From: Haliscomenobacter hydrossis DSM 1100
GTDB taxonomy: Bacteria > Bacteroidota > Bacteroidia > Chitinophagales > Saprospiraceae
Reading direction: 5' to 3'
Length of the DNA: 64,000 nucleotides
NCBI RefSeq assembly: GCF_000212735.1
Contig: NC_015510.1
Location: 3,907,001 to 3,971,000, forward strand
Below are positions 3,943-59,640 of the stretch, in pieces (position 1 is the first letter of the stretch; every line of letters begins with the position of its first letter). A model generated the notes under the pieces. It worked only from the letters and a program-made list of their open reading frames with translations. It was not told the origin of the DNA and did no database searches. Made by a program: the position numbers and the translations under genes.

Positions 3943-4046
3943 GTGAAAAGTGAAAAGCTAAAAGTGAAAAACGAACAATACCCATTTTTTCATGTTGGCT
4001 TCCCAGAGTCATCTCTGTTTTTCACTTTTAGTTTTTCACTTTTCAC
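3943..4046. repeat. Long inverted repeat, period-7 word arms (family C)
   Basis: Positions 3943-3972 and 4017-4046 form 30-bp arms with a single G-T mismatch around a 44-nt loop. Each arm is a tandem of 7-bp words of the form AGTGAAA / AGCTAAA; the right side continues with further words to about 4060. It is the only member of the hairpin set in a divergent spacer (sigma factor / CrtA-like gene) and ends 20 bp before the latter's ATG. Confidence 0.85.
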
Positions 4047-4066
4047 TTTTCACTTTTCATTTGATT

Positions 4067-4804
4067 ATGAGTCCACAAATCGTCACCATCACTTTTTTTC
4101 GCTACACCCAAGTCCAGCACAAGTGGTGGGGTTTCAAACAAATGGGGCTGGCTCCGCTGGAATTGGCTAAAGTAGCCGGGCTTTCTTTTTCCAAAATGAT
4201 GGGCAGTGGCAATGGCAACGGCTTTAGTATTTGGCCCAATTTCGGGGTGTATGGATTGCTGGCAGTGTGGGAGGATCCGGTGAGTGCGGAGGCTTTTTTT
4301 TCCGCCCATCCACTGTTTAACGCTTTTACAGCAAGAGCTAAAGAGATATGGACGGTCTATCTCCAAACGGCTAAGGTGCACGGTACCTGGGATGGCGGCA
4401 ACCCTTTTACGGAAAATGTGCCATACCAGGCGGAAGCACCAGTCGCGGTACTGACCCGGGCAACCATTCGCACCAAACGTTTGTGGCATTTCTGGCGTTT
4501 TGTACCCGGTGTAAGCAAAGCCATGTGGCGCGAACACCAGGAAGGGCTCCTTTTTTCCGTAGGCATTGGCGAACTGCCGCTGGTACAGCAAGCTACTTTT
4601 AGTTTATGGAAAAATAGCGCCGACATGCAGGCTTACGCCTACAAGGGAAAATTCCACAGCGAAGTGGTGCGCAAAACCCGAGAGCTGGGCTGGTACAAAG
4701 AAGAGCTTTTTGCCCGCTTTCATCCGTATCGGGTGGAGGGGACTTGGGGTGGTGCGAGGCTTGGTTATGCAGAACTGCCGCAAAATGCCAATGGTGTTTC
4801 TTGA
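4067..4804 (+). CDS. Spheroidene monooxygenase (CrtA)-like oxygenase
   Basis: 245 aa from the ATG at 4067; the upstream extension to 3992 only translates the hairpin arm. Sequence features match the CrtA family: an N-terminal TITFFRYTQVQHKWWGFKQMGLAP, LSFSKMMGSGNGNGFSIWPNFGVYGLLAVWED, a central LTRATIRTKRLWHFWRFVPGVSKAM and a C-terminal KTRELGWYKEELFARFHPY. CrtA enzymes oxygenate carotenoid end groups (heme- and O2-dependent in characterised members). No other carotenoid gene is in the window, so substrate and pathway are unknown. Length is typical of the family. Confidence 0.75.
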   Translation: MSPQIVTITFFRYTQVQHKWWGFKQMGLAPLELAKVAGLSFSKMMGSGNGNGFSIWPNFGVYGLLAVWEDPVSAEAFFSAHPLFNAFTARAKEIWTVYLQTAKVHGTWDGGNPFTENVPYQAEAPVAVLTRATIRTKRLWHFWRFVPGVSKAMWREHQEGLLFSVGIGELPLVQQATFSLWKNSADMQAYAYKGKFHSEVVRKTRELGWYKEELFARFHPYRVEGTWGGARLGYAELPQNANGVS

Positions 4805-4873
4805 TTTTGTTGGGAATTAGCAATTCGGTATGCTTTACGAGCAGATCAGGTGATACTTATAGGTGTTTATAGC

Positions 4874-4881
4874 TAATTTTG
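4874..4881 (+). promoter_or_regulatory. Candidate -7 element upstream of the methyltransferase
   Basis: TAATTTTG matches the Bacteroidota -7 consensus TAnnTTTG about 50 bp before the ATG at 4931. No good TTG is found at the -33 position, so support is moderate. Confidence 0.35.
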
Positions 4882-4930
4882 TCTCTGGTTGGTAAGCGAA
4901 TCTTACCAGAAATCCTAATTCCACGGTTTT

Positions 4931-5974
4931 ATGACAACTTTTGACCACGCTATTCTCGCCTGCCCAATCACCAAAGAAAACCTTAGAATGGTTGATTTGA
5001 ACCAAACCCAACTTGCCTTTTTTGAAAAATACAAACCACATTTTCAAGGATTTATAAATGACTCCAATACTGTTGTTTATCCCGTTGTTCAAGGTGTGAT
5101 CGTTTTGCTTCCAAATTATGCAATGCTGGCCAATGGCGAAGAAAAGCCGATGCCATTTGATAAAGACCGGGTGTTTAGGTATTACAACCAAATTGAGTAT
5201 GAGCAACTGGATGATTCCATCGTGTATTCGGACGCAAAAAAATTTGTGGATTTCAGGCCAGTCAACAAAACCTATCTCGAAAATGCACTCAAAAGGGTCA
5301 GCAAGTATATCGCACCGACCGGGAAGTATTGCCTGGACATTGCTTCGGGGCCAATTGGTTTAAAAGAATACCTCGAACTTTCAGCAGGATACGAGTGGAG
5401 GATTTGCATCGACATATCCATCAATGCACTTATCCAGGCGAAAAAAAATCTGGGCGAAGAAAAGGGCATTTTTATTTGTGGAGACATCACCAATATCCCC
5501 TTGCAAGCAGAGGTTTGTGCTGCGGTTATCTCTCAACATACCCTTTACCATGTGCCTAAAAATGAGCAAGAAACTGCCGTTCGAGAATTGTATCGCGTTG
5601 CAAAAGAGGGGGCATGCATTGCCATTGTTTACAACTGGTTTTACCATTCATTGCTGATGAATATTGCTTTATTGCCCTTACAAGTTTATCGAGTGATTCG
5701 GCACCTTTTGGGCAAATTTTACGTCAAACTGTGGCCATCCAAACCGCGTTTGTACTTTTATCCGCACAGCTATTTTTGGTTCAAAAATTTGGGATATGGA
5801 GACAAGCTGAACATCTATGTGTGGCGTACTTTGAATGTTCAGTTCATGCGTTTGTACATTCATGATTGGCTGGGAGGACAAAAGATGCTACAATTCTTCC
5901 AGCATCTTGAGGATCGATTCCCCAAAACAATGGGCTTTTTAGGCGATTACCCGCTGATTGTGATCAAGAAATAA
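4931..5974 (+). CDS. Class I SAM-dependent methyltransferase
   Basis: 347 aa. The N-terminal part (residues 1-65) resembles a Trm112-like lead (FDHAILACPITKENLRMVDL...VVYPVVQGVIVLLPNYAM) but keeps only one of the usual cysteines. The SAM-binding domain starts near residue 133 with YCLDIASGPIGLKEYLEL (motif I), then RICIDISINALIQAKKNLG (acidic residue of motif II) and ICGDITNIPLQAEVCAAVISQHTLYHVPKNEQETAVRELYRVAKEG, a Methyltransf_11 signature. A hydrophobic stretch follows (LLMNIALLPLQVYRVIRHLL). The substrate cannot be read from sequence. It stands alone between the CrtA-like gene and the S41 protease. Confidence 0.8.
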   Translation: MTTFDHAILACPITKENLRMVDLNQTQLAFFEKYKPHFQGFINDSNTVVYPVVQGVIVLLPNYAMLANGEEKPMPFDKDRVFRYYNQIEYEQLDDSIVYSDAKKFVDFRPVNKTYLENALKRVSKYIAPTGKYCLDIASGPIGLKEYLELSAGYEWRICIDISINALIQAKKNLGEEKGIFICGDITNIPLQAEVCAAVISQHTLYHVPKNEQETAVRELYRVAKEGACIAIVYNWFYHSLLMNIALLPLQVYRVIRHLLGKFYVKLWPSKPRLYFYPHSYFWFKNLGYGDKLNIYVWRTLNVQFMRLYIHDWLGGQKMLQFFQHLEDRFPKTMGFLGDYPLIVIKK

Positions 5975-6085
5975 AGATCAAAGTTTAGCACTACCCTGGC
6001 ATAAGTATTAAAATCACCCATCGGCAATAGACCAAAACTCCCTAAAAACTGTTATCATTGGGACTTTAGTTAAACATCATCCAAC

Positions 6086-7723
6086 ATGAAAAGAATCGCG
6101 AAATACACCCTCTGGCTGTTGCCGCTGGTCCTGCTGACCGTGGCTTTCACCGAATATCCAAGTACCCGCCAAGATTTTGAGATCAGCAAGAACCTCGAAA
6201 TTTTTGCCAACATGTACAAAGAGCTCAACTCGGCTTATGTAGACGACCTCGACCCGGGCAAAGTAATGCGCACGGGCATCGATGCTATGCTCAACAACCT
6301 TGATCCTTTCACCAATTACATCGCCGAAGCCGACATTGAAGGCTACCGCCTTTTGCGCGAAGGGACTTCAGACAACATTGGGTTTGAGTTCAAAAAGATT
6401 GGCGACTTTGTCACGGTTACTGAAATTTTCCAAGGTTTACCGGCAGATAAAGCGGGTATAAAAATAGGTGACCAGATTGTGGCGGTAGACAACAAGGACA
6501 CCAAAAACAAAAGCAGCGACGAAGTAGATTACGTGTTGCGCGGTGCAACTGGTACTACTGCGGAGTTGACCCTGCGCCGCCCGGGCCAAAACAGCGACTT
6601 TAAAGTCAAAATCAATCGGGAAGAAATGGAAATGCCCAATGTACCCTACTCTGGCCTGGTAGAAGGAGACGTAGCCTACGTATCCCTGTCTACTTTTTCA
6701 CAGGATGCGGGCAAAAACATTGGCAATGCAGTACGCGAATTGCGCCGGGAAAATCCCAACATCAAAGGCATCATCCTGGATTTGCGCGGGAATGGCGGTG
6801 GATTGTTGATTGAGGCGGTAAATCTCTGCAATGTATTCATCCCCAAAAATGAAATCGTGGTAACCACCCGCGGCAAACTCAAGGAACAAGACCGCAGTTT
6901 CCGTACGCAAGCTTCCGGCATTGAAGAAGATTTGCCACTGACGGTGCTGATTGACAAAAACTCGGCTTCGGCTTCCGAAATCGTGAGTGGCACCCTGCAG
7001 GATTACGACCGCGGTGTGCTGATCGGCCAACGCTCTTATGGCAAAGGTTTGGTACAAAACACGGTAGAAGTAGGCTACAATTCCCGCCTGAAGCTGACCA
7101 CCGCCAAGTATTACATCCCCAGCGGGCGCTGCATCCAAAGTGTAGAGTACCGCAATGGTGAACCAGTGGATATAGCCGATACCCGCCGCGCGGCCTTCAA
7201 AACCCGCAATGGCCGACCCGTATTGGATGGTGGTGGGGTAGCACCCGATATCAAAATTGAACAAGCCAGCAATATTCCCGTGGTGAAATCACTGCAAGAC
7301 CAGGACATCATTTTCCGTTTTGTAACCGAGTATTGCAAGGGTAAAGAAAAAATGCCGGAGATCAAGGATTTACGGTTCACTGACTTTGATGCCTTCCTTA
7401 GTTTTGTGCAAAAAGAAAAATTTGTTTTCCGCACCGAAAGTGAAAAACTGCTTGAACAGTTCAAGCAAAAAGTGACGGATGAAGGCTACAACCTCAGCAC
7501 CGCAGTGAGTTCATTGGAAACTGCGCTTGGCGCGGCTCAGTTGGAGTTGATCCGCAAGCACAAAGACCTGATCAGCAAATTGATTGAAAAAGACATCGCC
7601 GGGCGCTATTATTACGCCAACGGGCGGGCACAGATTGGACTTTTGCGCGATCCTGAAGTACAAGAAGCCATTAAGGTGATTCGGGACCAAGCACAGTATA
7701 AGAGTATTTTGAAGAAAAGTTGA
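6086..7723 (+). CDS. S41 family C-terminal processing peptidase with PDZ domain
   Basis: 545 aa. An N-terminal hydrophobic anchor or signal (LWLLPLVLLTVAF) precedes a helical cap, a PDZ domain at about residues 85-175 (DNIGFEFKKIGDFVTVTEIFQGLPADKAGIKIGDQIVAV) and the S41 protease core at about 190-355. The catalytic serine is in the SASASE motif (Ser295, or 293/297 in the same run) and the lysine of YGKGLVQ is Lys320, the 25-residue spacing seen in E. coli Prc. The family cleaves proteins at their C-termini in the periplasm. Its TGA stop (7721-7723) lies inside the outer word of the following inverted repeat. Confidence 0.92.
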   Translation: MKRIAKYTLWLLPLVLLTVAFTEYPSTRQDFEISKNLEIFANMYKELNSAYVDDLDPGKVMRTGIDAMLNNLDPFTNYIAEADIEGYRLLREGTSDNIGFEFKKIGDFVTVTEIFQGLPADKAGIKIGDQIVAVDNKDTKNKSSDEVDYVLRGATGTTAELTLRRPGQNSDFKVKINREEMEMPNVPYSGLVEGDVAYVSLSTFSQDAGKNIGNAVRELRRENPNIKGIILDLRGNGGGLLIEAVNLCNVFIPKNEIVVTTRGKLKEQDRSFRTQASGIEEDLPLTVLIDKNSASASEIVSGTLQDYDRGVLIGQRSYGKGLVQNTVEVGYNSRLKLTTAKYYIPSGRCIQSVEYRNGEPVDIADTRRAAFKTRNGRPVLDGGGVAPDIKIEQASNIPVVKSLQDQDIIFRFVTEYCKGKEKMPEIKDLRFTDFDAFLSFVQKEKFVFRTESEKLLEQFKQKVTDEGYNLSTAVSSLETALGAAQLELIRKHKDLISKLIEKDIAGRYYYANGRAQIGLLRDPEVQEAIKVIRDQAQYKSILKKS

Positions 7724-7834
7724 GAAGTTGAGGAGGTTGAGGCTACCGCGAGCGACTCAAACACCAGATCTAAAAATCTGGGTGAATGTCGTTCGCGGTA
7801 GCCTCAACCTCCTCAACCATAAACTTCTCAACTA
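7718..7834. repeat. Long inverted repeat, GTTGAG-word family A, between convergent genes
   Basis: Perfectly aligned 30-bp arms lie at 7727-7756 and 7788-7817 with one mismatch and a 31-nt loop. The arms consist of 8-9 bp words (GTTGAGGAG, GTTGAGG) followed by CTACCGCGAGCGAC. An extra outer word pair (7718-7726; 7825-7833) is separated from the right arm by CATAAAC. Both flanking stop codons, TGA at 7721-7723 and, on the minus strand, TAG at 7832-7834, lie in these outer words. Confidence 0.9.
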
Positions 7835-9142
7835 TTCATCTTTATCCCTCGAAGGCACATCCAGCAACAACAATTCGATAATCGAAGGGCTATTCTGGAT
7901 CATGTCGACGATGCGTACCTGATAAGGGTGAATGATGAGTTCCTGGCCTTCTTCCGGCAGTTCATCACTTTGTTCCATGATCAATCCAGCCAGCGTAATA
8001 TAGGATTCACTTTCTTGCAAGGGAAAAGGTAAAAATGCATTGATTTCATCCACAGGATGTTGGGCATGAACCCTGAAAACACTGTCGGATATTTTTTCCA
8101 CGATCGGCATTTCCGTATCGGTTTCGTCCTGAATATCCCCCACCAATTCTTCGATGATGTCTTCCAGGGTCAGCAAACCCACAATTCCGCCGAATTCGTT
8201 GACCACGATGGCCATTTGGTTTTTTTGCTCCTGAAACTGGCGCAAAACCTGGCTGATTTTTTTGCTGGAGGAAATAAACAACAACTCCCTGGTCATGCTG
8301 CGCAGGGTACCCTGTCGATTACCACGCAAGGTGGCCAGCAAATCTTTGGTCAAGATGAAGCCAAGGATATTGTCCATGTTTTCTTCGTAGACCGGATAGC
8401 GAGAATATCCCTCCTGTATGGCATAATCGATGGCATCATCGATGGGCATGGCCACATTGATGGCCGAAATCTGGTTGCGTGGTTTGAGCACCTGACGCAC
8501 TGTACGGTCGTCGAAGTCGAATACGTTTTGGATGAGTTCGCGTTCAGAAGCCCGAATGGCTCCTCCTTCGGCACTTTCGGCAATGATGAGCTTCAACTCA
8601 TCCTCCGAGTGAATCTCAGCGTGTGGTACAGGCTGAATCCCAATCGATTTGAGAATGAAATTGGCAAATCCGTTCAGGATGTAAATAAACGGCCGAAATA
8701 CAAAATAAAAGGCCCGCAAGGGCAGTGAAGTGTACAACGTGGTAGAGGTCGGATAACGAATGGCCAAAGATTTGGGTGCCAATTCGCCAAACACGATGTG
8801 CATCACGGTGATGACTGCAAAAGCGATGGGTAGTGCGATACGGTGGGCCAAGGCTTCATCCAGGTGGATATTCATGCCTTCCATCGCCCCAAGAATCAGC
8901 TTGGTCATGACGTCTTCGCCGACCCAACCCAGCCCCAAACTGGCCAGCGTAATGCCCAATTGGGTTGCCGCCAGGTAGCCATCCAAATTATTGACTACAC
9001 CCTCGGCGATGCGTCCAGCAAAACTTTCGCTGGCCTTGACTTGAATTTGAGAGATACGGACTTTAACAATGGCAAATTCTGCCGCAACGAAAAATCCGTT
9101 TAAGAATACAAGGAGAACAGTGAGTAATATATCAGGCCCCAT
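7832..9142 (-). CDS. CNNM/CorC-HlyC family membrane protein (DUF21 + CBS + CorC_HlyC)
   Basis: 436 aa. The N-terminal DUF21 transmembrane domain (residues 1-190, about four hydrophobic segments; LLVFLNGFFVAAEFAIVKVRIS is the typical start) is followed by a tandem CBS pair (about 205-330, including RNQISAINVAMPIDDAIDYAIQEGYSRYPVYEEN and the second repeat ending NEFGGIVGLLTLEDIIEELVGDIQDE) and a C-terminal CorC_HlyC domain (345-430). Often annotated 'hemolysin', but family knowledge points to magnesium or other cation efflux at the inner membrane. The length is normal. It is convergent with the S41 gene and divergent from the TPR membrane protein. Confidence 0.9.
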   Translation of the reverse strand: MGPDILLTVLLVFLNGFFVAAEFAIVKVRISQIQVKASESFAGRIAEGVVNNLDGYLAATQLGITLASLGLGWVGEDVMTKLILGAMEGMNIHLDEALAHRIALPIAFAVITVMHIVFGELAPKSLAIRYPTSTTLYTSLPLRAFYFVFRPFIYILNGFANFILKSIGIQPVPHAEIHSEDELKLIIAESAEGGAIRASERELIQNVFDFDDRTVRQVLKPRNQISAINVAMPIDDAIDYAIQEGYSRYPVYEENMDNILGFILTKDLLATLRGNRQGTLRSMTRELLFISSSKKISQVLRQFQEQKNQMAIVVNEFGGIVGLLTLEDIIEELVGDIQDETDTEMPIVEKISDSVFRVHAQHPVDEINAFLPFPLQESESYITLAGLIMEQSDELPEEGQELIIHPYQVRIVDMIQNSPSIIELLLLDVPSRDKDE

Positions 9143-9316: not shown

Positions 9317-11380
9317 ATGAGTAAAATACCCAAGGGAAGAAAATCTGTAGGTGGAAAACCAGGCTCAGGCAAAAGTATTCCGACCACTAAAATCACGACA
9401 CCCACGGCCAGTGAAATAAATGCCGCATTGGAGGGGAGCAAATCCCCACAGCGCTTGCATCTGGCCATTTTGCTGGGTTTGAGTATTTTGCTCTATGCCA
9501 ATACGCTCGGGCACGAATTCGTGCTGGATGATGCGATTGTGATCACGGAGAACATGCACGTGCAGAAAGGCTGGGCGGGACTTGCGGATATTTTCAACAA
9601 GGATACGTTTCACGGGTTTTTTAAAACCGACAAACAAGGGCTGGTTGAAGGCGGGCGTTACCGTCCTTTTACCCTGGCTATGTTTGCCATTGAAGGGGGC
9701 ATTTTTGGACACAATCCCTTTTGGGGACACCTGTTCAACATATTGTGGTACGGGCTTACCGGAGTGGTATTTTATTTGTTGGCCAGTGGATTATTTGCTT
9801 TCCGCTGGAACAAAGTGCTGAGCGCCTGGTTGGCATTTGCTGCGGCACTACTTTTTGTAGCACACCCCCTGCATACCGAAGCGGTGGCCAACATCAAGGG
9901 ACGTGATGAAATCATGGCGCTGCTGGGGAGTTTAGCTGCCCTTTATTTTTCCTTGCGGGGTTATCATTCGGGAAAGTTGGGCTGGGAAGCATTGGCAGCT
10001 TTGTGTTTTTTGGTGGGAATATTTTCCAAAGAAAATGCCATCACCTTTCTAGCCATCGTGCCGCTGACTTACTGGTTTTTTACCAATGCCTCTATCGGTC
10101 AAATCTTCAGATATACGGCACCCTTTGTGTTGATCGCCATCTTTTTTTTAATGGTGCGCTCCAATGTTCTTCCCGATGTGCAGATTGGTACTGCCTCCAA
10201 TGAGCTGATGAACAATCCGTATTTAAAATTGGAGGGCAATCAGTACGTTCCATTTTCGGGGGCAGAGCGGCAGGCTACGGTTTTTTATACCCTGGGAAAA
10301 TACATCCAATTGTTTTTGGTGCCCTATCCGCTCACCCACGATTATTATCCCATGCAAATTCCGCGCATGACTTGGGGGCAACCGGGGGCTATATTGAGTT
10401 TTTTACTTTATTTGGGTATGGGTATTTACGGCGTGATGGGCTTGCGTAAAAAATCGCCCATTGCCTATGGCCTGTTGTTTTATTTGATCACCCTCTCCAT
10501 CGTATCCAACATTTGGCTGGTGGTGGGTACCAACATGTCGGAACGTTTTGTGTTTATGCCTTCGGTCGGCTTGTGTATGGCCGTAGTAGCGAGCTTGGCT
10601 TCCTGGTTTTATGGGGTAAAACTACCCCAAACCACGCGGCCTCAGACGGTAATTTTCAGCATTGGAGCAATTGCCCTGATTTTTGGAGGTTTGACAATTT
10701 TGCGCAACAACGCCTGGAAAGACAACCTGACCCTGTTCCGTACTGACGCCAAAACTTCAGCAAACAGTGCCAAAGTGCGCAATGCCCTGGGCGGAGAGTT
10801 GATTGTCCGAGCTGAAAAAATCAAAAATGATTCCCTGACTAAAGTTGCATTTCTCCAGGAGGCCGCGACCAATTTATTAAAAGCCATAGAACTTCACCCT
10901 GGCTACAAAGACGCTTTCTTTTTGCTGGGCACCTGCAACATCCACCTGCGCAATTACCCGGAAGCCGTGAAATACCTCGAAGGCGCTTATTCCCTGAATT
11001 CAAGCGATACAAATACCGTCCGAAACCTCAGTGTCGCTTATCGTTTGCTGGGGCAAGAAGAAGGAGAAAAAAAAGGCAACCTGGCCAATGCGTTAACCTA
11101 TTTGCAAAAAGCACTGACCCTCAGTCCCAATGATTATACCACCTTGCGTTTGCTGGGGGTAGCCTATCATGTCACCCAAAACTATGCCCTGGCCTTGAGT
11201 TATTTTGAAAAGGCCAGGAACCAGGCACCTCAACTGGCCGACGCTTGGTTTGAACTAGGCATGGCATACGAGTTTGTCAAAGACGACACCAACGCCCAGC
11301 AAGCTTTTGCCAAAGCAGGACAATTAGACCCCAATATTCAACAGAAATTTCAGGATCGCAAGCAAGGAGTAGGGCAGTAA
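9317..11380 (+). CDS. GT-C-like multi-pass membrane protein with C-terminal TPR repeats
   Basis: 687 aa. A basic Lys/Gly/Ser/Thr-rich N-tail (1-45) precedes a first membrane helix (LAILLGLSILLYANTLG) and the loop motif HEFVLDDAIVITEN; the acidic pair after the first helix is typical of GT-C/PMT-type O-glycosyltransferases and TMTC-like proteins. About ten hydrophobic segments continue to residue about 460. The last 200 residues contain at least four TPR units (AIELHPGYKDAFFLLGTCNIHLRNYPEAVKYLEGAYSLN; ALTLSPNDYTTLRLLGVAYHVTQNYALALSYFEKA). A role in protein O-glycosylation is inference from architecture. The last base of its TAA is the first base of the next inverted repeat. Confidence 0.8.
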   Translation: MSKIPKGRKSVGGKPGSGKSIPTTKITTPTASEINAALEGSKSPQRLHLAILLGLSILLYANTLGHEFVLDDAIVITENMHVQKGWAGLADIFNKDTFHGFFKTDKQGLVEGGRYRPFTLAMFAIEGGIFGHNPFWGHLFNILWYGLTGVVFYLLASGLFAFRWNKVLSAWLAFAAALLFVAHPLHTEAVANIKGRDEIMALLGSLAALYFSLRGYHSGKLGWEALAALCFLVGIFSKENAITFLAIVPLTYWFFTNASIGQIFRYTAPFVLIAIFFLMVRSNVLPDVQIGTASNELMNNPYLKLEGNQYVPFSGAERQATVFYTLGKYIQLFLVPYPLTHDYYPMQIPRMTWGQPGAILSFLLYLGMGIYGVMGLRKKSPIAYGLLFYLITLSIVSNIWLVVGTNMSERFVFMPSVGLCMAVVASLASWFYGVKLPQTTRPQTVIFSIGAIALIFGGLTILRNNAWKDNLTLFRTDAKTSANSAKVRNALGGELIVRAEKIKNDSLTKVAFLQEAATNLLKAIELHPGYKDAFFLLGTCNIHLRNYPEAVKYLEGAYSLNSSDTNTVRNLSVAYRLLGQEEGEKKGNLANALTYLQKALTLSPNDYTTLRLLGVAYHVTQNYALALSYFEKARNQAPQLADAWFELGMAYEFVKDDTNAQQAFAKAGQLDPNIQQKFQDRKQGVGQ

Positions 11381-11536
11381 GGAACGGAAACGAAATAAAA
11401 GCGCATTTTGCTGGACTCTTTTTTAATTTGGCCGCGTTACTCGTCAGTTGCGTAGTATACTATGCGCCTTCCTCGCGCCTTGCCAAATCAAAAAATAGCC
11501 GCCTCAAATCTGCGCTTTTATTTCGCTTCCGTTCCT
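11380..11536. repeat. 157-bp nested foldback element
   Basis: The outer arms, 11380-11405 and 11511-11536, are 26 bp with one mismatch. A second stem pairs 11419-11432 with 11482-11495 (one mismatch). A central near-palindrome around GTAGTATACTA lies at about 11450-11467. The element begins on the last base of the upstream stop codon. Its architecture (three stacked stems with a GTAG/CTAY centre) resembles the element at 17512-17671, although the outer arms differ. Confidence 0.8.
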
Positions 11537-11544
11537 AATGCCAA

Positions 11545-11552: not shown

Positions 11553-11618
11553 TAATTTAGCAGAGCCTTAACAAACCTTTACCCCCTTCGGGAGGTCTTA
11601 ATAGGAAAAGCATTCGGA

Positions 11619-12266
11619 ATGATGATGAAGCGCAAATGGTGGATTTTGATTTTGGCTGGAATAATGAGCCTGGGGGCTGAATTGCAAGCGCAACGCGATA
11701 CCAACTTGGTTCAATTTTCAGGACTGGTACTGGATGGCAGCAATGACCAACTTATCCCGGTGCCCTATACCAACATTTTCATCAAAGGAAAGAACCGGGG
11801 GACTTACTCCGATCTTAAAGGGTTTTTCTCCATTGTGGTGGAAAAAGGCGACGTCATTCGTTTTTCCACCATCGGTTACGAAACGGTGGAGTACCGCATT
11901 CCCAAAGACTTGAAGGATGACCGCTACTCCCTGGTGCAATTGATGACCCAGGATGTAGTCAATTTACCCGAAACGGTGATCTTTCCCTGGCCAAGTCGCG
12001 ATCATTTCCGCCTGGAATTTCTGGCGATGGACGTTACCCCCGAATTGCAAAAACGCGCTGCCGAAAACCTGGCCAAAGAAACTTTGAAAAAAACCGAGGT
12101 CGGTACCCGCTATGATGGCGATGAAAATGCCGACTTTTTCCTGCGCCGCCAGGCTAGCAACTATTACTACTACGGCCAGGCGCCGCCCATGAATATCTTC
12201 AACCCGATTGCCTGGGGCAAGTTTTTCAAGGCTTGGAAGGCAGGGGACTTTAAGAAGAAAGAATAA
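11619..12266 (+). CDS. Secreted protein with CarboxypepD-like beta-sandwich domain
   Basis: 215 aa; the start is one of three tandem ATGs. A signal peptide (KWWILILAGIMSLGAELQAQ) leads into a carboxypeptidase-regulatory-like domain at about residues 32-115 (FSGLVLDGSNDQLIPVPYTNIFIKGKNRGTYSDLKGFFSIVVEKGDVIRFSTIGYETVEYRIP). This is the same fold as the N-terminal domain of SusC-like proteins, but there is no barrel. The C-terminal 90 residues are charged with a YYYYGQAPPMNIFNPIAWGKFFKAW segment. Such proteins are common and functionally undefined in Bacteroidota. The last base of its TAA begins the next hairpin. Confidence 0.78.
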   Translation: MMMKRKWWILILAGIMSLGAELQAQRDTNLVQFSGLVLDGSNDQLIPVPYTNIFIKGKNRGTYSDLKGFFSIVVEKGDVIRFSTIGYETVEYRIPKDLKDDRYSLVQLMTQDVVNLPETVIFPWPSRDHFRLEFLAMDVTPELQKRAAENLAKETLKKTEVGTRYDGDENADFFLRRQASNYYYYGQAPPMNIFNPIAWGKFFKAWKAGDFKKKE

Positions 12267-12337
12267 GCTATGAGCTGTCAGCCATCAGCCATGAGCTAGC
12301 TGATGGCTGACAGCTCATAGCTCATAGCTGACAGCTA
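12266..12337. repeat. Perfect 24-bp inverted repeat with AGCT-word arms (family F)
   Basis: 12266-12289 and 12299-12322 pair perfectly over 24 bp with a 9-nt loop. Words of 7 bp (AGCTATG, AGCTGTC, AGCCATC) run in tandem and continue on the right side to 12337. The plus-strand stop TAA shares base 12266 and the minus-strand stop TAG (12335-12337) is inside the last word. It lies between convergent genes. Confidence 0.9.
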
Positions 12338-14880: not shown

Positions 14881-14974
14881 TTTAGCCACAGAGAAAGCAG
14901 AGGGAAACCACAGAGAGAACTGAGGAGAAAACTTCGTTTCCTCTGTGGTGTTCCTCTGTTCCCTCTGTGGTTAA
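14881..14974. repeat. Imperfect inverted repeat with CCACAGAG-word arms (family E)
   Basis: Arms of about 40 bp (14881-14920 and 14935-14974) share the words CCACAGAG and CAGAGG and pair at roughly three quarters of positions around a short loop. It lies between the convergent xylanase and EttA genes, 8 bp past the xylanase stop and 11 bp from the EttA stop. This is the least perfect member of the set. Confidence 0.75.
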
Positions 14975-14985
14975 ATATGAATATC

Positions 14986-18347: not shown

Positions 18348-18355
18348 GTTTAAAG

Positions 18356-18467
18356 GTTGAGAAGTTGAGAAGGTTGAGGCTACCGCGAAGGACATGCACA
18401 CCTTCACACGCACACATCACACTCAAACCCATTCTTGCGGTAGCCTCAACCTTCTCAACCCCTCAAC
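18356..18467. repeat. Long inverted repeat, GTTGAG-word family A, inside the oxidoreductase gene pair
   Basis: Arms 18356-18386 and 18437-18467 are 31 bp with two mismatches. The inner 23 bp are perfect and end in GGCTACCGC, the same stem core as in the repeat at 7727-7817, whereas the 50-nt loop is unrelated. It lies between two co-directional genes that should be co-expressed, ending 37 bp before the GMC start. Confidence 0.9.
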
Positions 18468-18504
18468 CTTCTCAACTTTTTCTTCAATCAAGCAACAACA
18501 AACA

Positions 18505-20223: not shown

Positions 20224-20224
20224 T

Positions 20225-20315
20225 GGTTCGGGAGTTCGGGGGTTCGAAGGTTCGGGGGGTTAGAGCGACATAACCCCCGAACCCTCAAACCCCCGAACCC
20301 CCGAACTCTCGAACC
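20225..20315. repeat. Long inverted repeat with GGTTCGGG-word arms (family B)
   Basis: The left arm (20225-20262) and right arm (20271-20315) are tandems of an 8-bp word GGTTCGGG with one extra word on the right, closing on a short loop around GAGCGACA. It starts 1 bp after the GMC stop codon and ends 7 bp before the next start codon, filling the whole spacer of a co-directional pair. The same word family recurs at 41066-41140. Confidence 0.88.
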
Positions 20316-30012: not shown

Positions 30013-32034
30013 ATGTCATTCCAACTCGTTTCCAAATATTCTCCCACCGGTGACCAACCCCTGGCCATTGCCAAATTAACCGACAGTTTAAATGCTGGTG
30101 AGCGCACCCAGGTATTGTTGGGCGTAACGGGCTCCGGTAAAACCTTTACCATTGCCAATGTCATTGCCAATGTGAACCGGCCTACGCTGGTGCTGACCCA
30201 CAACAAAACCCTGACCGCGCAGTTATACGGCGAACTACAAGAGTTTTTCCCGGATAACGCCGTAGAGTATTTTGTTTCCTACTACGATTATTACCAACCC
30301 GAAGCTTACCTCTCGGTAAGTGATACCTATATCGAAAAGGATTTGTTGATCAATGAGCAGGTGGACAAGCTGCGTTTGCGGGCCACTTCCAACTTGCTCT
30401 CCGGTCGGCGGGACATCATCATCGTGGCATCGGTGTCCTGTATTTACGGGATGGGTAACCCTGAGGATTACAAATCCGGGATCATTCGTATTCAAAAAGG
30501 GCAGGTGATTTCCCGCAATGCCTTTTTGTACAAACTGGTGGAAAGTCTGTATTCGCGCACCGAGATCGAATTCAAAAGGGCGACCTTTCGGGTTCGTGGG
30601 GATACCGTCGATATCAACTTGCCCTATGTAGACTACGGCTACAGGATTAAATTTTTTGGCGATGAAATCGATGAAATCGAAATGATTGAAATCGAAACTG
30701 GCAAGCGGATTGACCGCATGAACGATGCGGCCATTTTTCCAGCCAATCTATACATTGCCCCCAAGGACCGCCAAAACATGATCATCCGCCAGATTGAAGA
30801 TGAACTGCACGATCAGGAAAAATATTTTGAACGCGAAGGCCGCTTACTCGAAGCCAAACGTATCCACGAACGCACGCTTTTTGACCTGGAAATGATCAAG
30901 GAGTTGGGCTACTGCAATGGAGTAGAAAACTACTCGCGTTTTTTTGACGGGCGTATGGTGGGCACTCGGCCGTTTTGCCTGCTGGATTATTTCCCCGAGG
31001 ATTACCTGTTGGTGATAGACGAAAGCCACGTGACCATCCCCCAAATCCGCGGGATGTACGGTGGTGACCGCGCCCGCAAACTCAGCCTGGTGGAACACGG
31101 GTTTCGTTTGCCTTCGGCAATGGACAATCGCCCCCTCAATTTTACGGAATTTGAAGGAATGTTCAGTCAAGTCATCTTCGTCAGTGCCACCCCTGGCGAT
31201 TACGAATTTGAACAAACCGGCGGAGTTGTGGTCGAACAATTGATCCGCCCTACCGGGCTCTTGGACCCACCGATTGAAGTGCGCCCCAGTCTCAATCAAA
31301 TTGATGATTTATTGGAAGAAATCCAACAGCGCATCGCAAGAGAAGAACGGGTTTTGGTGACAACGCTCACCAAAAGGATGGCGGAAGAGTTGACCAAATA
31401 CCTCGCCAAACTGAACATCAAAATACGCTACATCCACTCCGAAGTAGATACCATGGAGCGGGTTGAAATTCTACGGGACCTGCGCTTGGGGGGATTTGAT
31501 GTGCTGGTTGGGGTGAACCTTTTGCGCGAAGGGCTGGATTTACCCGAGGTATCTCTGGTCGCAATATTAGATGCGGACAAAGAGGGTTTTTTGCGCAATG
31601 ACCGCTCCTTGACCCAAACGGCGGGTCGGGCAGCACGCAACTCCAATGGCTTGGTTATTTTTTATGCCGACAAAATCACCGACTCAATGCAGCGTACCAT
31701 TGACGAAACCGAGCGGCGTCGAGTCATCCAAATGGCCTACAACGAAGAGCGGGGCATTACGCCCAAAACAGTGTTTAAGTCGAAAGAAGAAATCCTTAAC
31801 CAGCGCTCGATCCTGGATGTACGGGGCAAAACCAGCCAGGCGTACATTGAACCAGAAAATATAACCATAGCCGCTGATCCATTGGTGAGTTACATGACCC
31901 GCGACCAGTTGGAAAAACTGGCCAGTGAAACCGAACGCAAGATGAAGCAAGCCGCCAAAGAGTTGGATTTCATCACGGCGGCGCAAATGCGGGATGAGTT
32001 GTTTGCCTTTCGGGAAAAATTAAAAACGGTGTAG
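30013..32034 (+). CDS. uvrB: Excinuclease ABC subunit B
   Basis: 673 aa from the ATG at 30013 ([20 protein letters not shown]). Walker A GVTGSGKT is at residues 37-44, the beta-hairpin region ([20 protein letters not shown]) is intact, and the DESH box, helicase motifs ([26 protein letters not shown]) and the C-terminal UVR domain ([34 protein letters not shown]) are present. It is the damage-verification helicase of nucleotide excision repair and is full length. Its TAG stop shares its T with the start of the following inverted repeat. Confidence 0.98.
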
Positions 32035-32111
32035 GGGCAAACCCTGTGTGGTTGCCCTTACACCGGCAACCACACGGATTGCCCCGGGTAAGCACACAGG
32101 ATTGCCCCTAC
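32032..32111. repeat. Inverted repeat with GGGGCAA / GTGTGGTTGCC words (family H)
   Basis: The left side TAGGGGCAAACCCTGTGTGG (32032-32051) pairs with the right side ending at 32111 (one indel). An inner stem pairs GTGTGGTTGCC with GGCAACCACAC. A further copy of the CACACGGATTGCCCC word is inserted on the right. It begins on the uvrB stop codon and ends 2 bp before the stop of the convergent DUF2911 gene. Confidence 0.8.
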
Positions 32112-37155: not shown

Positions 37156-37578
37156 ATGGAACCAGAAAACAAAAAAGACCAGGCCGAAAATCCAGCTGAA
37201 AACCTGGACCAGTACGAAAATAAATTCACCGAGCGGAAATTGTGGCACAAGATCACCCGCTTTGCGCAAAAAATTGGCGTCAAAGCGGTGTATGCTGCCT
37301 TGTTGATGTTTTACGCGTACAAACGGAAAGATACACCGGGTTGGGCCAAAAAAATTGTCATCGGTATTTTGGGCTATCTGATTAGCCCGATTGATTTTTT
37401 ACCAGACTTAACCCCCATCATCGGCTATACCGATGACCTGGGTATTTTGAGCTTTGGCCTCGTGACCATTGCTGCATTCGTCAATGAGGAAGTACGCAAA
37501 AAAGCACGTACCCAATTGGGCAAGTGGTTTCCGAGCTTTAAGGAAGAAGATCTTAAAGCAGTGGAAGACAAATTATAA
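37156..37578 (+). CDS. YkvA family protein (DUF1232)
   Basis: 140 aa. A charged N-terminal segment (1-45) precedes the DUF1232 core: KAVYAALLMFYAYKRKDTPGWAKKIVIGILGYLISPIDFLPDLTPIIGYTDDLGILSFGLVTIAAFV, with the invariant YLISPIDFLPD motif. It is a small membrane-associated protein of unknown role. The TAA (37576-37578) is followed with no gap by the left arm of an inverted repeat; the gene is convergent with the CBS gene. Confidence 0.87.
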   Translation: MEPENKKDQAENPAENLDQYENKFTERKLWHKITRFAQKIGVKAVYAALLMFYAYKRKDTPGWAKKIVIGILGYLISPIDFLPDLTPIIGYTDDLGILSFGLVTIAAFVNEEVRKKARTQLGKWFPSFKEEDLKAVEDKL

Positions 37579-37675
37579 GCGAAAAGCGAATAGCAAAAAG
37601 CGAAAAGTACAATTCAGTTTGATCAGAAAGCAAGAATTGTGTGTTACTTTTCGCTATTCGCTATTCGCTTTTCAC
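37579..37675. repeat. Long inverted repeat with AGCGAAA-word arms (family C)
   Basis: The 31-bp arms (37579-37609 and 37645-37675) have three mismatches and consist of 7-bp words AGCGAAA / AGCGAAT. The left arm starts on the base after the YkvA stop and the right arm shares its last base with the minus-strand TAG of the CBS gene (37675-37677). The structure therefore exactly spans the gap between two convergent stop codons. Confidence 0.9.
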
Positions 37676-38160
37676 TACCCCACGATTCCCTCTGTTACCT
37701 CTCCTTCGTGTTGCCGATTCTCCAGAATTTGTTTAGGGCTAACTGGTTCGGTGGCCAAGGCTTTAATGATGTCGTAAGTGGTCAGTATACCCACCAATTC
37801 GTCATTTTCTACTACAGGAATTGCGTGAAAACGATTGACCAGGAATATCTCTAAAGCGACATTGATGCGATCATTTGGGTCCAGCTTGGCCAAACCTTTG
37901 GTCATGATTTCTTCCGCAGCATAAGAGCGTAGTCTTGCATAGTTCACAAAACGGTCTTCTTCATTAGGGGAAAATCCCTGTAAAAAATGCATGAAGTCAG
38001 TTTTGCTGATGATGCCAATCAATTCTTTGTAGCGTACTACGGGAATGTGATGGATGTTGTGATCGTCGAAGATGTCTTTGACAAGGCTAAGTTTGTCAGA
38101 TGGAGCAACCGTGATCAAATGGGTGCTCATGATGCTTTTAACGGGTGCCAGGACGTTCAT
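37675..38160 (-). CDS. CBS-domain pair protein
   Basis: 161 aa, two CBS domains only: about residues 8-65 (VKSIMSTHLITVAPSDKLSLVKDIFDDHNIHHIPVVRYKELIGIISKTDFM) and about 85-145 (EEIMTKGLAKLDPNDRINVALEIFLVNRFHAIPVVENDELVGILTTYDIIKAL). Stand-alone CBS pairs bind adenine nucleotides and regulate partner proteins; the partner is unknown. No signal peptide. It is divergent from bamA. Confidence 0.88.
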   Translation of the reverse strand: MNVLAPVKSIMSTHLITVAPSDKLSLVKDIFDDHNIHHIPVVRYKELIGIISKTDFMHFLQGFSPNEEDRFVNYARLRSYAAEEIMTKGLAKLDPNDRINVALEIFLVNRFHAIPVVENDELVGILTTYDIIKALATEPVSPKQILENRQHEGEVTEGIVG

Positions 38161-41053: not shown

Positions 41054-41065
41054 TAAAAAAGGCTC

Positions 41066-41140
41066 GAGGGTTCGGGAGTTCGAGGGTTCGGGAGTAACCC
41101 CAACCTCCGAACCCCCGAACCCCCGAACCCCCGAACCCTC
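41066..41140. repeat. Long inverted repeat with GGTTCGGG-word arms (family B) abutting a start codon
   Basis: Arms 41066-41094 and 41112-41140 are 29 bp with three mismatches, made of the 8-bp word GGGTTCGG; the loop is 17 nt. The right arm ends one base before the pxpA ATG (41142-41144), so in mRNA the ribosome landing site would be inside the stem. Same word family as 20225-20315. Confidence 0.88.
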
Positions 41141-49961: not shown

Positions 49962-50016
49962 TGTTGCTGACGATTGGTCGATATTAAGTCGAATGTAAAA
50001 TTTTGTGTAGTTATAG

Positions 50017-50185
50017 AACCCTGAAGGGGTGACATGATTATAGAAAAATTGAAGGAATGTTTGTTTTCAAGAGAAACCCCGAAGGGGTGGCATTTTTAAG
50101 GTTGTTAATCATACCACCCCTTCGGGGTTTCTCTTAGAAAATGATTGGCTGGTTAATGCTATAATCATGTCACCCCTTCGGGGTT
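50017..50185. repeat. Double nested inverted repeat built on CCCCTTCGGGG mini-hairpins (family G)
   Basis: Outer arms 50017-50043 and 50159-50185 are 27 bp with one mismatch; inner arms 50069-50090 and 50114-50135 are a perfect 22 bp. Every arm contains ACCCCGAAGGGGTG or its complement ACCCCTTCGGGG, which by itself folds into a CCCC-UUCG-GGG tetraloop hairpin, so the region can form either one long double stem or four small ones. It lies between the susD and DUF1080 genes. Confidence 0.9.
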
Positions 50186-50229
50186 TTAATTCACCCCCTC
50201 CATTACTCGATCTCCAAAACCACTGCTCC

Positions 50230-51630: not shown

Positions 51631-51986
51631 ATCTCTAAGGTGTCCTAAGGTGTCTAAGGTGGTTCAAAAAATACACCACGAAGTTGTTTCGGGAGGTTTT
51701 ATTTGAACCACCTCAGGCCTGTCGATTACCCACAAATCCGCACATTGAATGCGAGATTGTGCTTTAGCTTCAGAACCCCCAACCCCTAAAGGGGAGTATA
51801 TTTTCGATAATCGTAATATTTCCCCCTTTTTTAGAAAAAGTAAGGCCTTTTAGTTACCTAAAATGTGCTCCCCTTTAGGGGTCGGGGGTTCTGAGGCCGC
51901 AGTAAAATGCTCAATATCAACCACAAACCTAATTAGGGGATTTGTGGGTAATCGACAGACCTCAGGCACCTTAGAGCACCTCAGAG
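51631..51986. repeat. Family D inverted repeat (AAGGTG words) interrupted by a MITE-like insertion
   Basis: The left arm (about 51634-51669) is a tandem of AAGGTGTC words. The matching right arm is split: TTTGAACCACCTCAGGC (51702-51718) and CACCTTAGAGCACCTCAGAG (51967-51986). Removing 51719-51967 restores a 36-bp right arm with five mismatches to the left arm. The same words form the intact repeat at 54412-54518. Confidence 0.85.
51719..51958. mobile_element. 240-bp MITE-like element with 20-bp terminal inverted repeats and 9-bp target duplication
   Basis: The termini are perfect 20-bp inverted repeats, CTGTCGATTACCCACAAATC at 51719-51738 and its complement at 51939-51958. Both ends are flanked by the identical 9-mer ACCTCAGGC (51710-51718 and 51959-51967), a target-site duplication. 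Inside, a second 26-bp inverted repeat (51771-51796 with 51868-51893, one mismatch; CCCCTAAAGGGGAG core) forms an inner hairpin. No open reading frame or transposase is present, so it is a non-autonomous element. Confidence 0.85.
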
Positions 51987-54411: not shown

Positions 54412-54518
54412 ATACCTTCTAAGGTGCTCTAAGGTGTCTAAGGTGGTTGAATTAATCCACTTCTGCAAATGTAAATTTTTGAACCACCTTAGACACCTTA
54501 GAGCACCTCAGAAGGTAT
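54412..54518. repeat. Long inverted repeat with AAGGTGTCT words (family D)
   Basis: Arms 54412-54448 and 54482-54518 are 37 bp with a single mismatch, made of 9-10 bp words (AAGGTGCTCT, AAGGTGTCT, AAGGTGGTT), with a 33-nt loop. It lies between the co-directional GH92 and GH43-like genes, 27 bp past the GH92 stop. It is the intact relative of the interrupted repeat at 51631-51986. Confidence 0.92.
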
Positions 54519-57336: not shown

Positions 57337-57406
57337 TTGCTGCTGCCGAGCGCCGCAGGCACATAACTGCTTCAGATTACACCATTCAAACCGGACCTTG
57401 TATCCA

Positions 57407-59407
57407 ATGAAAATACAACTGAATCTGACCATCATCTGCTTCCTTCTCCTGAGCACGCTTTCCGCTCAGGAAACCCGCCCCATTTGGCTGGATGACCTCC
57501 CCATCAAATCCTTCTCCGAAGGAATCCCCGCCGTATTAGGCAAAACCAACGCCGCTGGCGATCCTCTGCGCATCGCTGGAACCACCTACCCGCACGGTGT
57601 CGGCGTAAATTCCACCAGCATTCTTGCCTTTTACCTGAATAGCCACGCCCAATCCTTTTCGGCACTAGTCGGCGTCGACGACGAGGGCAACAAAACCCTG
57701 CCCCACAAATTCTACGTCATCGGCGACCGCAAAATCCTCTTTGAAAGCCGCGAAATGAAATGGGGCGATCCAGCCCAAAAAGTTGAAGTTGATCTCCAGG
57801 GGATAAAACGCTTGGGATTGCTGGTGAAAATCAACGATGAAGGCATCAATCGAACCTACAGCAATTGGGCCGATGCAAAATTCGTGATGTTGGGCAACCA
57901 CCTGCCTGAAAACATGCCCAATACCGACGAAAAATACATTTTGACCCCCGCCCCGGGCAAGGCCCCCCGCATCAATTCACCCAAAGTATTTGGCGCCCGA
58001 CCCGGCAATCCGTTCCTGTACACCATTGCCGCCACCGGGCAAGCACCAATAAATTATTCGGCTAAAAACCTGCCGCAAGGACTCAGACTGGATCCTAAAA
58101 CCGGCATCATCACCGGAAGTGTAGCGCAAAAAAGCACGCATCAAAGTATCCTCAGGGCAAAAAACAAATTTGGCAAAGCTACCCAACGATTGACCATCAA
58201 AATTGGCGACACCATCGCCCTGACACCCCCCATCGGTTGGAACGGCTGGAACTCCTGGGCACGCAACATCGATCAGGAAAAAGTAATCGCCTCTGCGGAC
58301 GCCATGGTAAAAATGGGCTTGCGCCAACACGGCTGGACCTACATCAACATCGACGACGCCTGGCAAGGTCAACGCGGCGGACCATTCAACGCCATTCAGC
58401 CCAATGAAAAATTCCCTGACTTTAAAGGAATGGTCGACTACATCCACAGCCTGGGGCTAAAAGTGGGCATTTATTCCACCCCCATGATCACCAGTTATGC
58501 AGGGTACACGGGTGGCTCTTCCAATTTTGAAAAAGGAGAATTGCCCGATTCCATCATACAAAACAAACGCGCCTACCGCTACGTCGGAAAATACCGTTTT
58601 GAACGCAACGATGCCCGTCAAATGGCCGCATGGGGAATCGATTATTTAAAGTACGACTGGCGGATTGAGGTGGAATCGGCTGAACGGATGTCCGCCGCAC
58701 TTCAACAATCGGGGCGCGACATTTTTTACAGCATTTCCAATTCTGCACCTTTCGCCAAGGTCAAAGACTGGGTGCGTTTGACCAATTCCTGGCGTACCGG
58801 ACCCGATATCCGCGACTCCTGGCACAGCCTCTACGTGTCGGCTTTTACCCTGGATAAATGGGCACCCTACGGTGGCCCCGGCCACTGGAACGACCCCGAC
58901 ATGATGATCCTGGGCAACGTAACGACTGGCTCACCCGTACATCCGACTCGGCTCACCCCCGACGAACAGTACAGCCATGTGAGTTTGTTTAGCCTGCTTT
59001 CGGCTCCTTTGCTCATCGGCTGCCCCATCGAACAATTGGATGCTTTCACCCTGAATCTGCTGACCAACGATGAGGTCATTGCAATCGATCAAGACCCGTT
59101 GGGTAAACCCGCCCGCCTGATTGCAACGGAAAATGGGGTGCAAATTTGGCTCAAATCGTTGGCAGATGGCTCCTATGCTCTGGGCTTGTTCAACGTCGGC
59201 GACTTTGGCCAAACGCCACAATCTTACTTCCGCTGGGACGACGAACAGCCTCTAAACTTTACCCTCGATTTAACCAAATTGGGTCTGAACGAAAAATACC
59301 AACTGCGGGATGTATGGCGGCAAAAAGACCTTGGTGGGTTCAGCGGAAAGTTTCAGGCTGCTATTCCGCACCACGGTGTGGTGATGCTGAAGATAATCGC
59401 TAACTGA
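57407..59407 (+). CDS. GH27 alpha-galactosidase with N-terminal NPCBM domain (paralogue 1)
   Basis: 666 aa from the ATG at 57407 with signal peptide KIQLNLTIICFLLLSTLSAQ. Residues about 22-155 are an NPCBM-like carbohydrate-binding domain (IWLDDLPIKSFSEGIPAVLGKTNAAGDPLRIAGTTYPHGVGVNSTSILAF). About 180-262 is a putative Ig domain (GNPFLYTIAATGQAPINYSAKNLPQGLRLDPKTGIITG). The GH27 barrel begins at PPIGWNGWNSWA; the nucleophile is Asp417 in YLKYDW and the acid/base Asp467 in GPDIRDSW. GPGHWNDPDMMILGN is another hallmark. It removes terminal alpha-galactose. It lies 70 bp after the preceding unrecognised gene. Confidence 0.93.
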   Translation: MKIQLNLTIICFLLLSTLSAQETRPIWLDDLPIKSFSEGIPAVLGKTNAAGDPLRIAGTTYPHGVGVNSTSILAFYLNSHAQSFSALVGVDDEGNKTLPHKFYVIGDRKILFESREMKWGDPAQKVEVDLQGIKRLGLLVKINDEGINRTYSNWADAKFVMLGNHLPENMPNTDEKYILTPAPGKAPRINSPKVFGARPGNPFLYTIAATGQAPINYSAKNLPQGLRLDPKTGIITGSVAQKSTHQSILRAKNKFGKATQRLTIKIGDTIALTPPIGWNGWNSWARNIDQEKVIASADAMVKMGLRQHGWTYINIDDAWQGQRGGPFNAIQPNEKFPDFKGMVDYIHSLGLKVGIYSTPMITSYAGYTGGSSNFEKGELPDSIIQNKRAYRYVGKYRFERNDARQMAAWGIDYLKYDWRIEVESAERMSAALQQSGRDIFYSISNSAPFAKVKDWVRLTNSWRTGPDIRDSWHSLYVSAFTLDKWAPYGGPGHWNDPDMMILGNVTTGSPVHPTRLTPDEQYSHVSLFSLLSAPLLIGCPIEQLDAFTLNLLTNDEVIAIDQDPLGKPARLIATENGVQIWLKSLADGSYALGLFNVGDFGQTPQSYFRWDDEQPLNFTLDLTKLGLNEKYQLRDVWRQKDLGGFSGKFQAAIPHHGVVMLKIIAN

Positions 59408-59521
59408 AAGCTCGAAGATTGATAATCTAAACGATTTTTTGATTTGGCTGTGGCTCCGAGTGCTAAATAGTAATACATTCTTTTGCAAGAGCAAGTTTTT
59501 TGATTTGGCTACCGCCAAATG

Positions 59522-59640
59522 TTTTGTAACCGCGACGGCGCGACGATTCATTTGGCTGCGCCAAATGAGCGACGTAAACCGACGTAGAAGTGTGCGAAGC
59601 ACACATACCGTCGCGCCGTCGCGTCGTCGCGGTTACAAAA
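59522..59640. repeat. GC-rich inverted repeat with several inner hairpins
   Basis: TTTTGTAACCGCGACG (59522-59537) pairs with 59625-59640, and GACGGCGCGACG (59534-59545) pairs with 59609-59620, with 4 extra bp on the right. Inside are small hairpins: CATTTGGC-TGC-GCCAAATG near 59549-59567 and TGTGC-GAA-GCACA near 59591-59603; GCAGC-GAA-GCTGC lies just outside at 59643-59655. ATTTGGCTACCGCCAAAT lies just upstream (about 59503-59520). The 309-bp spacer 59408-59716 otherwise holds no gene. Confidence 0.78.

Follow-up and report, generated by a model that had tools for sequence, protein, structure and literature searches.

Paired arrays of short tandem words are known from Geobacter and Xanthomonas. 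The 'global regulator sites' of Geobacter metallireducens (classes 1-3; PMC2700814) are paired octamers or heptamers in several word classes; tandem words of 7-9 bases lie on opposite strands around a variable spacer (as stated for classes 1 and 2), with tens of sequences per class and insertion sequences nearby. In Xanthomonas, arrays of the heptamer GGGAATC (PMC4692102) include 70 and 75 cases of two convergent arrays; the arrays lie near the upstream gene (28 nt on average), convergent genes flank 16% of them and divergent genes 7-8%, and the pair type is usually kept between two species. Here we analyzed long intergenic hairpins of comparable layout in a 64,000-nucleotide stretch of Haliscomenobacter hydrossis DSM 1100 (bases 3,907,001-3,971,000; hereafter the window) and in relatives of the same genus. 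H. hydrossis is a filamentous sludge bacterium. Its word-built hairpins, like the Geobacter sites, pair one array of a 7-9-base word with a second array on the other strand, and they are intergenic and multi-copy. Because such paired arrays have been described before, the design is not unprecedented. The Geobacter sites differ in that binding of IHF/HU was proposed for them, and the passages of that report available to us contain no replacement at orthologous sites, joint change of arms or inversion. The Xanthomonas arrays belong to one word family and were read as G-quadruplexes, whereas here many families are swapped at one site. Arrays of the heptamer TAACTGA (PMC4679880), some of them in Bacteroidetes, are likewise intergenic and tandem, but nearly all of them are direct repeats (in the main genome, 169 direct sets and one indirect), and they lie mostly before start codons. 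What is new here, judging from sequence comparison, is that the presence of a hairpin is kept at orthologous gene ends despite exchange of its sequence. Among the matches listed from the open-access literature, outside which most subscription journals lie, no report dealt with these elements in Haliscomenobacter or Saprospiraceae, and none described word hairpins being replaced wholesale at orthologous sites.

The H. hydrossis genome has 8,771,651 bp, with a chromosome of 8,371,686 bp (PMC3156403). We sampled 464 kb, or 5.3% of the genome, made up of the window and 20 further stretches, each 20 kb long and evenly spaced (L004, L014, L020 and L021 among them). The assembly of the strain (G000) has 4 contigs; the relatives (G001-G004) are draft genomes of 80-1020 contigs, G001, G003 and G004 being fragmented. 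Genes were predicted with our own simple codon-pair model rather than standard annotation, and inverted repeats were located by a gap-free search, with a score of at least 18 for the whole sample and at least 14 inside spacers. The search returned 93 inverted repeats in the sample, 92 of them mostly noncoding; extrapolated from these 92 by proportion, the genome would hold about 1,700 long inverted repeats, miniature inverted-repeat transposable elements (MITEs) included. The preliminary description of the window had listed 16 such repeats, and 15 were recovered; the exception, at 32032, has only short outer arms in H. hydrossis. Comparison with shuffled spacers had been set in advance as the test of whether the repeats form a system. 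Across 282 spacers we found 93 inverted repeats at the lower score, against 0 in three rounds of Markov shuffling, and the proposal withstood this test on 5.3% of the genome. The common layout across sequence families was also borne out. To call the repeats a single system goes too far: their number is well above the shuffled expectation, but they comprise word hairpins, MITEs and a family resembling repetitive extragenic palindromes (REPs).

To score word structure, periods of 6-10 were tested and a left arm was counted as periodic at p ≤ 0.02. Periodic left arms were found in 46 of the 92 elements, with periods of 7-10, compared with 2-5 after plain shuffling and 7-10 elements when dinucleotides were preserved; arms thus consist of tandem words in about half of the elements, not in most of them as first described. 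The words include GGTTCGGG, AGTTGAGA, AGTTGAAA, GGGTTTTA, AAGTGAA, AAGCGAA and AGCTATC, together with GTTGATAA, GCACAAAGG, CACAGATT, ACGCGGATT and ACGACGAC. For 11 of 12 tested words, 61-100% of the occurrences in the 464 kb lay in or near hairpins; the weakest, GTTGAGGAGG, had 7 of 12 there. Coding sequence held 0-3 copies of each. These counts bear on the idea that the words are uptake signals paired as terminators, for which Neisseria gives a precedent (hairpins formed from one word repeated genome-wide; PMC2267715). Repeated words in inverted pairs at gene ends fit that idea, but there are many words here, mostly confined to hairpins, and genome-wide over-representation as single copies was absent for the 12 words in the sample. 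We rejected this explanation, to which we give almost no credence.

RNA folds of six window hairpins were highly stable (z from -7.3 to -15.9). Within the window, an Rfam scan gave nothing at gathering thresholds and a tRNA scan gave no tRNA. The density of long inverted repeats per 10 kb was 2.0 in H. hydrossis (400-kb sample), 1.5 in G003, 1.25 in G004 and 0.4 in G002, and at most 0.5 in 21 genomes from other genera of the phylum, most of them represented by 20 kb; these are small samples, the stretches of G002-G004 were non-random, and a 22nd genome (G026, 2.3 kb) was excluded. Three consecutive copies of the pattern GTTGARRR occurred in 3 of 80 phylum genomes, with 92 overlapping matches in H. 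hydrossis and one in each of two others; the same pattern read backward, as a control, gave 44 matches in H. hydrossis.

We then compared orthologous spacers, taking as input the window, the hairpin-rich stretches L004, L014 and L021, and one L020 site whose emptiness in relatives was known beforehand. Hairpins with a similarity of at least 0.5 were treated as homologous. At 42 non-divergent sites, where an H. hydrossis hairpin was set against a non-homologous hairpin in a relative, both were present at 15 sites, only the H. hydrossis hairpin at 4, only the relative's at 4 and neither at 19 (odds ratio 17.8, p = 0.00012). Restricting the count to spacers of at least 60 bp, done by hand, gave 15, 4, 3 and 12 (p = 0.0014). 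Single pairs of genomes, again without homologous hairpins, gave p = 0.004 for G000-G001, 0.02 for G000-G003, 0.002 for G000-G004 and 0.013 for G003-G004. By reading the alignments, we found the sequence to be wholly different in at least one relative at about 10 of the 15 shared sites (L004:3301, 4866 and 13945; L014:2956; window 12266, 18347, 20223, 41053, 49961 and 59407), the other five sharing a word family. A word family common to H. hydrossis and at least one relative was seen at 54384, 24369, 10437, 18494 and 18347. Site 51600 scored below 0.5, apparently only because a MITE displaced the best inverted repeat. The 23 spacers that were hairpin-free in both genomes folded no better than shuffles (z from -1.7 to 0.7), and of 8 spacers at hairpin sites that lacked a detected hairpin, three had z from -2.1 to -7.7 and five from -1.8 to 0.6.

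Individual sites illustrate the exchange. At 20223, the hairpins of four species belong to four different word families, GGTTCGGG, GTTGAG with GCTACCGC, GTTGAAAA and GTTCCAGG, and the G002 spacer is 6 bp. At 12266, G001 and G003 have a GATGAAT hairpin, with the loop inverted between them. At 18353, G003 has the same family as H. hydrossis and G004 an ACGACG element, and none was found in G001. The site at 41053 carries a GATTTCGG hairpin in G003 and G004, with a further element within the G003 loop. Between the ATP synthase genes (24370), a hairpin is present in all four species compared, in three versions: that of H. hydrossis, AGTTGAGG in G001 and G004, and a nested composite hairpin in G003, which is sub-threshold but folds at z = -3.0. 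Because presence is kept at orthologous gene ends while the sequence often differs, and is swapped or flipped, these comparisons suggest that the fold matters and not the letters. The same evidence bears on the possibility that the hairpins are sites for DNA-bending proteins such as IHF/HU, as proposed for the octamers of G. metallireducens. Although the layout of paired tandem arrays on opposite strands is the same (PMC2700814), about a dozen words occupy equivalent places here, and several replace one another at a single site in different species; because different words serve and swap in this way, a sequence-reading protein is disfavored, and we regard this explanation as very improbable.

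The preliminary description had left unexplained how the two arms stay complementary. Orthologous sites provided 57 pairs of hairpins, with loops unrelated in 39. Among 14 distinct loop comparisons, 9 were in the same orientation and 5, at 4 sites, were inverted (direct/inverted scores 9/30, 4/24, 11/29, 9/17 and 8/17). The inverted rows fell from 7 to 5 when one duplicate and one weak MITE-like match were dropped, and the direct rows from 11 to 9 when two duplicates were dropped; three of the remaining 9 are not word hairpins. In the hairpin at 54412 (site 54384), the loop has opposite orientations in G000 and G004, and likewise in G001 and G003. Because asymmetric marks in the arms change sides along with the loop, as judged by eye, the whole hairpin has turned. 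Substitutions on both sides that keep pairing numbered 9, against 1.6 expected, in 16 aligned pairs with 580 base pairs (8 against about 1.5 without two duplicate rows); in the same base pairs, 48 changes were one-sided and one affected both sides but left the bases unpaired. When replication switches template between inverted repeats, arms are homogenized and spacers inverted (PMC8604942), and compensatory change together with loop inversion has been called the strongest possible support for such switching, such cases being extremely rare in rRNA (PMC8794818). Arm homogenization and loop inversion were both found here between relatives, with the caveats of draft assemblies and many single-sided changes. 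The published examples come from rRNA, microRNA genes and yeast coding DNA, whereas the hairpins described here lie in bacterial spacers and have arms of 20-40 bp around a loop of about 30 bases. We therefore propose template switching between arms as a candidate cause of the complementarity, backed by the inversions between species.

We consider the elements best explained, with confidence about evenly balanced, as 3'-end or intercistronic stem-loops that persist as a fold at particular gene ends even as their sequence is replaced. Within a cruciform or hairpin, DNA polymerase would switch template from one arm to the other, so that an arm is copied from its partner and the entire element is at times inverted. 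Words of 7-10 bases would multiply through slippage in one arm and then be copied to the other, and new hairpins may come partly from mobile palindromes (MITE, REPIN, the GCTACCGC palindrome, the GAGCGAAGTCGAGG core) landing beside or inside old ones. In the RNA, the stem-loop would mark the 3' side of the message, blocking 3' exonucleases and perhaps causing partial termination.

Several observations weigh against this explanation. The association of hairpins at orthologous sites, without homologous cases, gave p = 0.25 for G001-G003 and a marginal 0.05 for G001-G004. Truly empty orthologous sites occur (spacers of 2, 7 and 10 bp), and elements lie within hairpins at 51719 and, in G003, at 41053. 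Kept presence could reflect places that tolerate insertion rather than a need for the hairpin. At site 51600 the loop has one orientation in three species (by eye; unscored owing to the MITE). The 48 single-sided changes exceed the 9 paired ones, and therefore arms do drift; words were gained or lost in one arm only at 59407 and in L038/L039 (by eye). As G001, G003 and G004 are fragmented, the inversions could be misassemblies, and template switching leaves the source of new word families unaccounted for.

Insertion tolerance is a strong rival to selection for the fold. On this account, the elements are selfish mobile palindromes (MITEs, REPINs and their relatives) that survive without function where insertion is harmless, after stop codons or between transcription units. 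Dispersed families at 11380, 17512, 50017, 51719 and 59522, insertions present or absent between species, the empty sites and the elements nested in loops are all consistent with it. Terminal inverted repeats, a target duplication and presence/absence between species were found for 51719-51958 and probably hold for 11380-11538, and copies of the 17511 element, among the matches listed, are 78-91% identical in G001, G003 and G004 and 73% in G002. Closeness to stop codons also fits, being hardly greater than crowding into a short spacer would give: 16 of 28 hairpins with 7-8-base words lie within 10 bp of a stop codon, against 11.6 of 23 under random placement. However, arms are repeated around a unique loop in 40 of the 92 elements, unlike recent transposition of a whole unit (both are repeated in 25); unrelated hairpins recur at the same site; and some hairpins lie inside operons of co-expressed subunits. 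We judge a purely selfish origin possible, though on the doubtful side. BrickBuilt of Porphyromonas (PMC4596501) is likewise a Bacteroidota MITE with a tandem array, but its unit has 23 bases, it forms one family and it has promoter activity.

As in described REPIN/RAYT systems (PMC6006769, PMC3733652), the palindromic repeat at 50017 is found beside two Y1 transposase genes. This repeat, AACCCCGAAGGGGTGACATGATTATAG, flanks 2 of the 7 Y1_Tnp genes of H. hydrossis, and the repeat with those genes (L045, L046) forms a candidate REPIN/RAYT pair in Bacteroidota. Word hairpins differ in this respect, none being found within about 1.5 kb of the 7 genes; a RAYT origin was rejected for word hairpins and kept for 50017.

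A further 8 of the 92 elements have unique arms and a repeated loop; in five of them there is a core that resembles GGTCGCCGAGCGAAGTCGAGGTGCC. As the unit of all hairpins this core was rejected, since it is present in only 6 of 92. Among the genus loci examined there were 12 copies, 11 with complementary arms scoring at least 10; five of the 11 have wordless unique arms and the others lie mostly within word hairpins. Arms are mostly unrelated between copies (median similarity 0.29 against 0.25 shuffled; 2 of 55 pairs above 0.7). Outside the genus, the core was found at 73 loci in Algoriphagus, Nostoc, Ignavibacteriales, Spirochaetes and others, and arms scoring at least 10 flank 5 of 80 copies (control 1 of 80, top score 15); the 3 copies with arms of at least 20 are all in metagenome-assembled genomes (MAGs) of Saprospiraceae or Chitinophagales. 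Opposite the core site L020:7809, the orthologous spacers of G003 and G004 measure about 10-13 bp and hold no hairpin, and the L003 core site had no orthologue among the three relatives searched. Because 11 of 12 core copies in the genus sit between mostly unrelated complementary arms, against 5 of 80 outside it, a more far-reaching version of our proposal can be put forward tentatively, and we think it rather unlikely: foldback or template switching would continually rewrite gene-end hairpins, with one flank serving as template for the other around a loop or the conserved GAGCGAAGTCGAGG core. A hairpin could then form from whatever sequence is present locally, and selection would keep the hairpin, not the sequence, at fixed 3' ends, including those between subunit genes that need unequal output. 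As an observation in its own right, the core is a 23-base palindrome, GGTCRCCGAGCGAAGYCGAGGYG, spread across phyla, with 15 of the 73 loci in Nostoc sp. FACHB-280 and 16 in Algoriphagus, and with tandem copies in a Fibrobacteria MAG. A literature search with four of its 12-mers gave nothing related, as judged by title.

Placement relative to genes was non-random. Among spacers longer than 60 bp, a hairpin with a score of at least 20 was found in 16 of 32 where the genes converge, in 54 of 160 where they are co-directional and in 5 of 41 where they diverge; none of the 23 divergent spacers of 61-250 bp had one. The avoidance of divergent spacers noted in the window was confirmed; that nearly every convergent spacer carries a hairpin was too strong genome-wide. 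Among the 46 periodic elements, the first arm was purine-rich in 32 and purine-poor in 12 (p = 0.004). The strong stems, this purine bias and the excess in convergent spacers would suit unusually long but ordinary bidirectional intrinsic terminators. A stable stem-loop at the 3' end was indeed found; a U-tract directly after the stem was only slightly commoner than at control positions. At least 6 T in the 8 bases beside the stem occurred in 26 of 184 flanks (14%), compared with 8% of control positions, and because this is hardly an enrichment, textbook terminators fit poorly. A consensus terminator scan of positions 1-20000 gave 21 hits against 26.3 expected (standard deviation 4.9), showing no excess. 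In most cases the element is not a U-tract terminator. Simple full termination is further disfavored because hairpins stand between genes that are presumably co-expressed (ATP synthase; GMC oxidoreductase and gluconate dehydrogenase subunit 3), a position at which complete termination would do harm, and we consider the terminator explanation unlikely. The 3'-end role first suggested thus stands as regards non-random 3' placement and kept presence, but not as simple termination. The beta and epsilon subunits of ATP synthase are required in a 3:1 ratio, and an intercistronic stem-loop that would shield the upstream message is an attractive reading of that site.

The one window hairpin that lies in a divergent spacer, at 3941-4062, appears to mark a rearrangement junction. 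The genes at 37156 and 4067 have neighboring orthologues in G003, separated by an AGTGAAA hairpin; in H. hydrossis these genes are 33 kb apart, and both separated ends (3941-4062 and 37577-37677) carry AAGYGAA hairpins, which is why we read the site in this way. Word hairpins may act as rearrangement points. A different kind of inverted repeat, ATGTGGGGTAAAA / TTTTACCCCACAT, lies in the divergent spacer at 43385-43538 and is partly kept in G003 and G004; it looks like a regulator site and differs from the hairpins. The elements of the window are collected in Table 1.

Table 1. Hairpins and mobile elements in the H. hydrossis window (positions within the window; MFE, minimum free energy).
Element	Position	Remarks
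Word hairpin, AAGTGAA 7-mer arms	3941..4062	the window's divergent-spacer hairpin
Word hairpin GTTGAGGA with inner GCTACCGCGAGCGAC palindrome	7717..7830	convergent spacer; MFE -78.1, z -15.9
MITE-like, arms AGGAACGGAAACGAAATAAAAGCGC	11380..11538	multi-copy in genus (among matches listed); TAA at both flanks; not at site in G003, G004
Word hairpin AGCTATG (7-mer)	12266..12336	convergent spacer
Hairpin, CCACAGAG-type arms	14881..14975	convergent spacer; weak, score 17
MITE-like 161-bp element, long loop	17511..17672	multi-copy
Word hairpin GTTGAGAA with GCTACCGC	18353..18476	from arm-period test and alignment of relatives
Word hairpin GGTTCGGG	20225..20315	between GMC oxidoreductase gene and gluconate 2-dehydrogenase subunit 3
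Word hairpin AGTTGAAA	24370..24485	flanked by ATP synthase genes, one of the alpha/beta family (read as beta) and one delta/epsilon
Decayed hairpin GTAGGGGCAA ... TTGCCCCTAC	32031..32111	orthologues in G003, G004 are strong intact hairpins
Word hairpin AAGCGAA (7-mer)	37577..37677	convergent spacer; MFE -44.1, z -8.6
Word hairpin GGTTCGGG	41064..41140	from arm-period test and fold
REP/REPIN-like pair AACCCCGAAGGGGTGACATGATTATAG	50014..50188	repeat also at Y1_Tnp genes
Word hairpin TCTAAGGTG	51634..51986	AAGGTG type, split by MITE 51719-51958
MITE	51719..51958	terminal inverted repeat CTGTCGATTACCCACAAATC, 9-bp duplication ACCTCAGGC; not in G004, G001
Word hairpin TCTAAGGTG	54412..54518	MFE -65.7, z -12.0
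ACGACG-type element	59522..59640	multi-copy among matches listed; AAGGTG hairpin here in G003, G004

How long paired stems originate and are kept up without broken intermediates is an old question. Each genome of this genus may hold more than 1,000 natural replicates at fixed positions, and inversions and wholesale swaps can be seen between its species, so that template switching and selection for the fold become directly testable in it. Our findings also suggest that annotation by sequence has overlooked a layer of control at 3' ends or in operons, because no letters are conserved.

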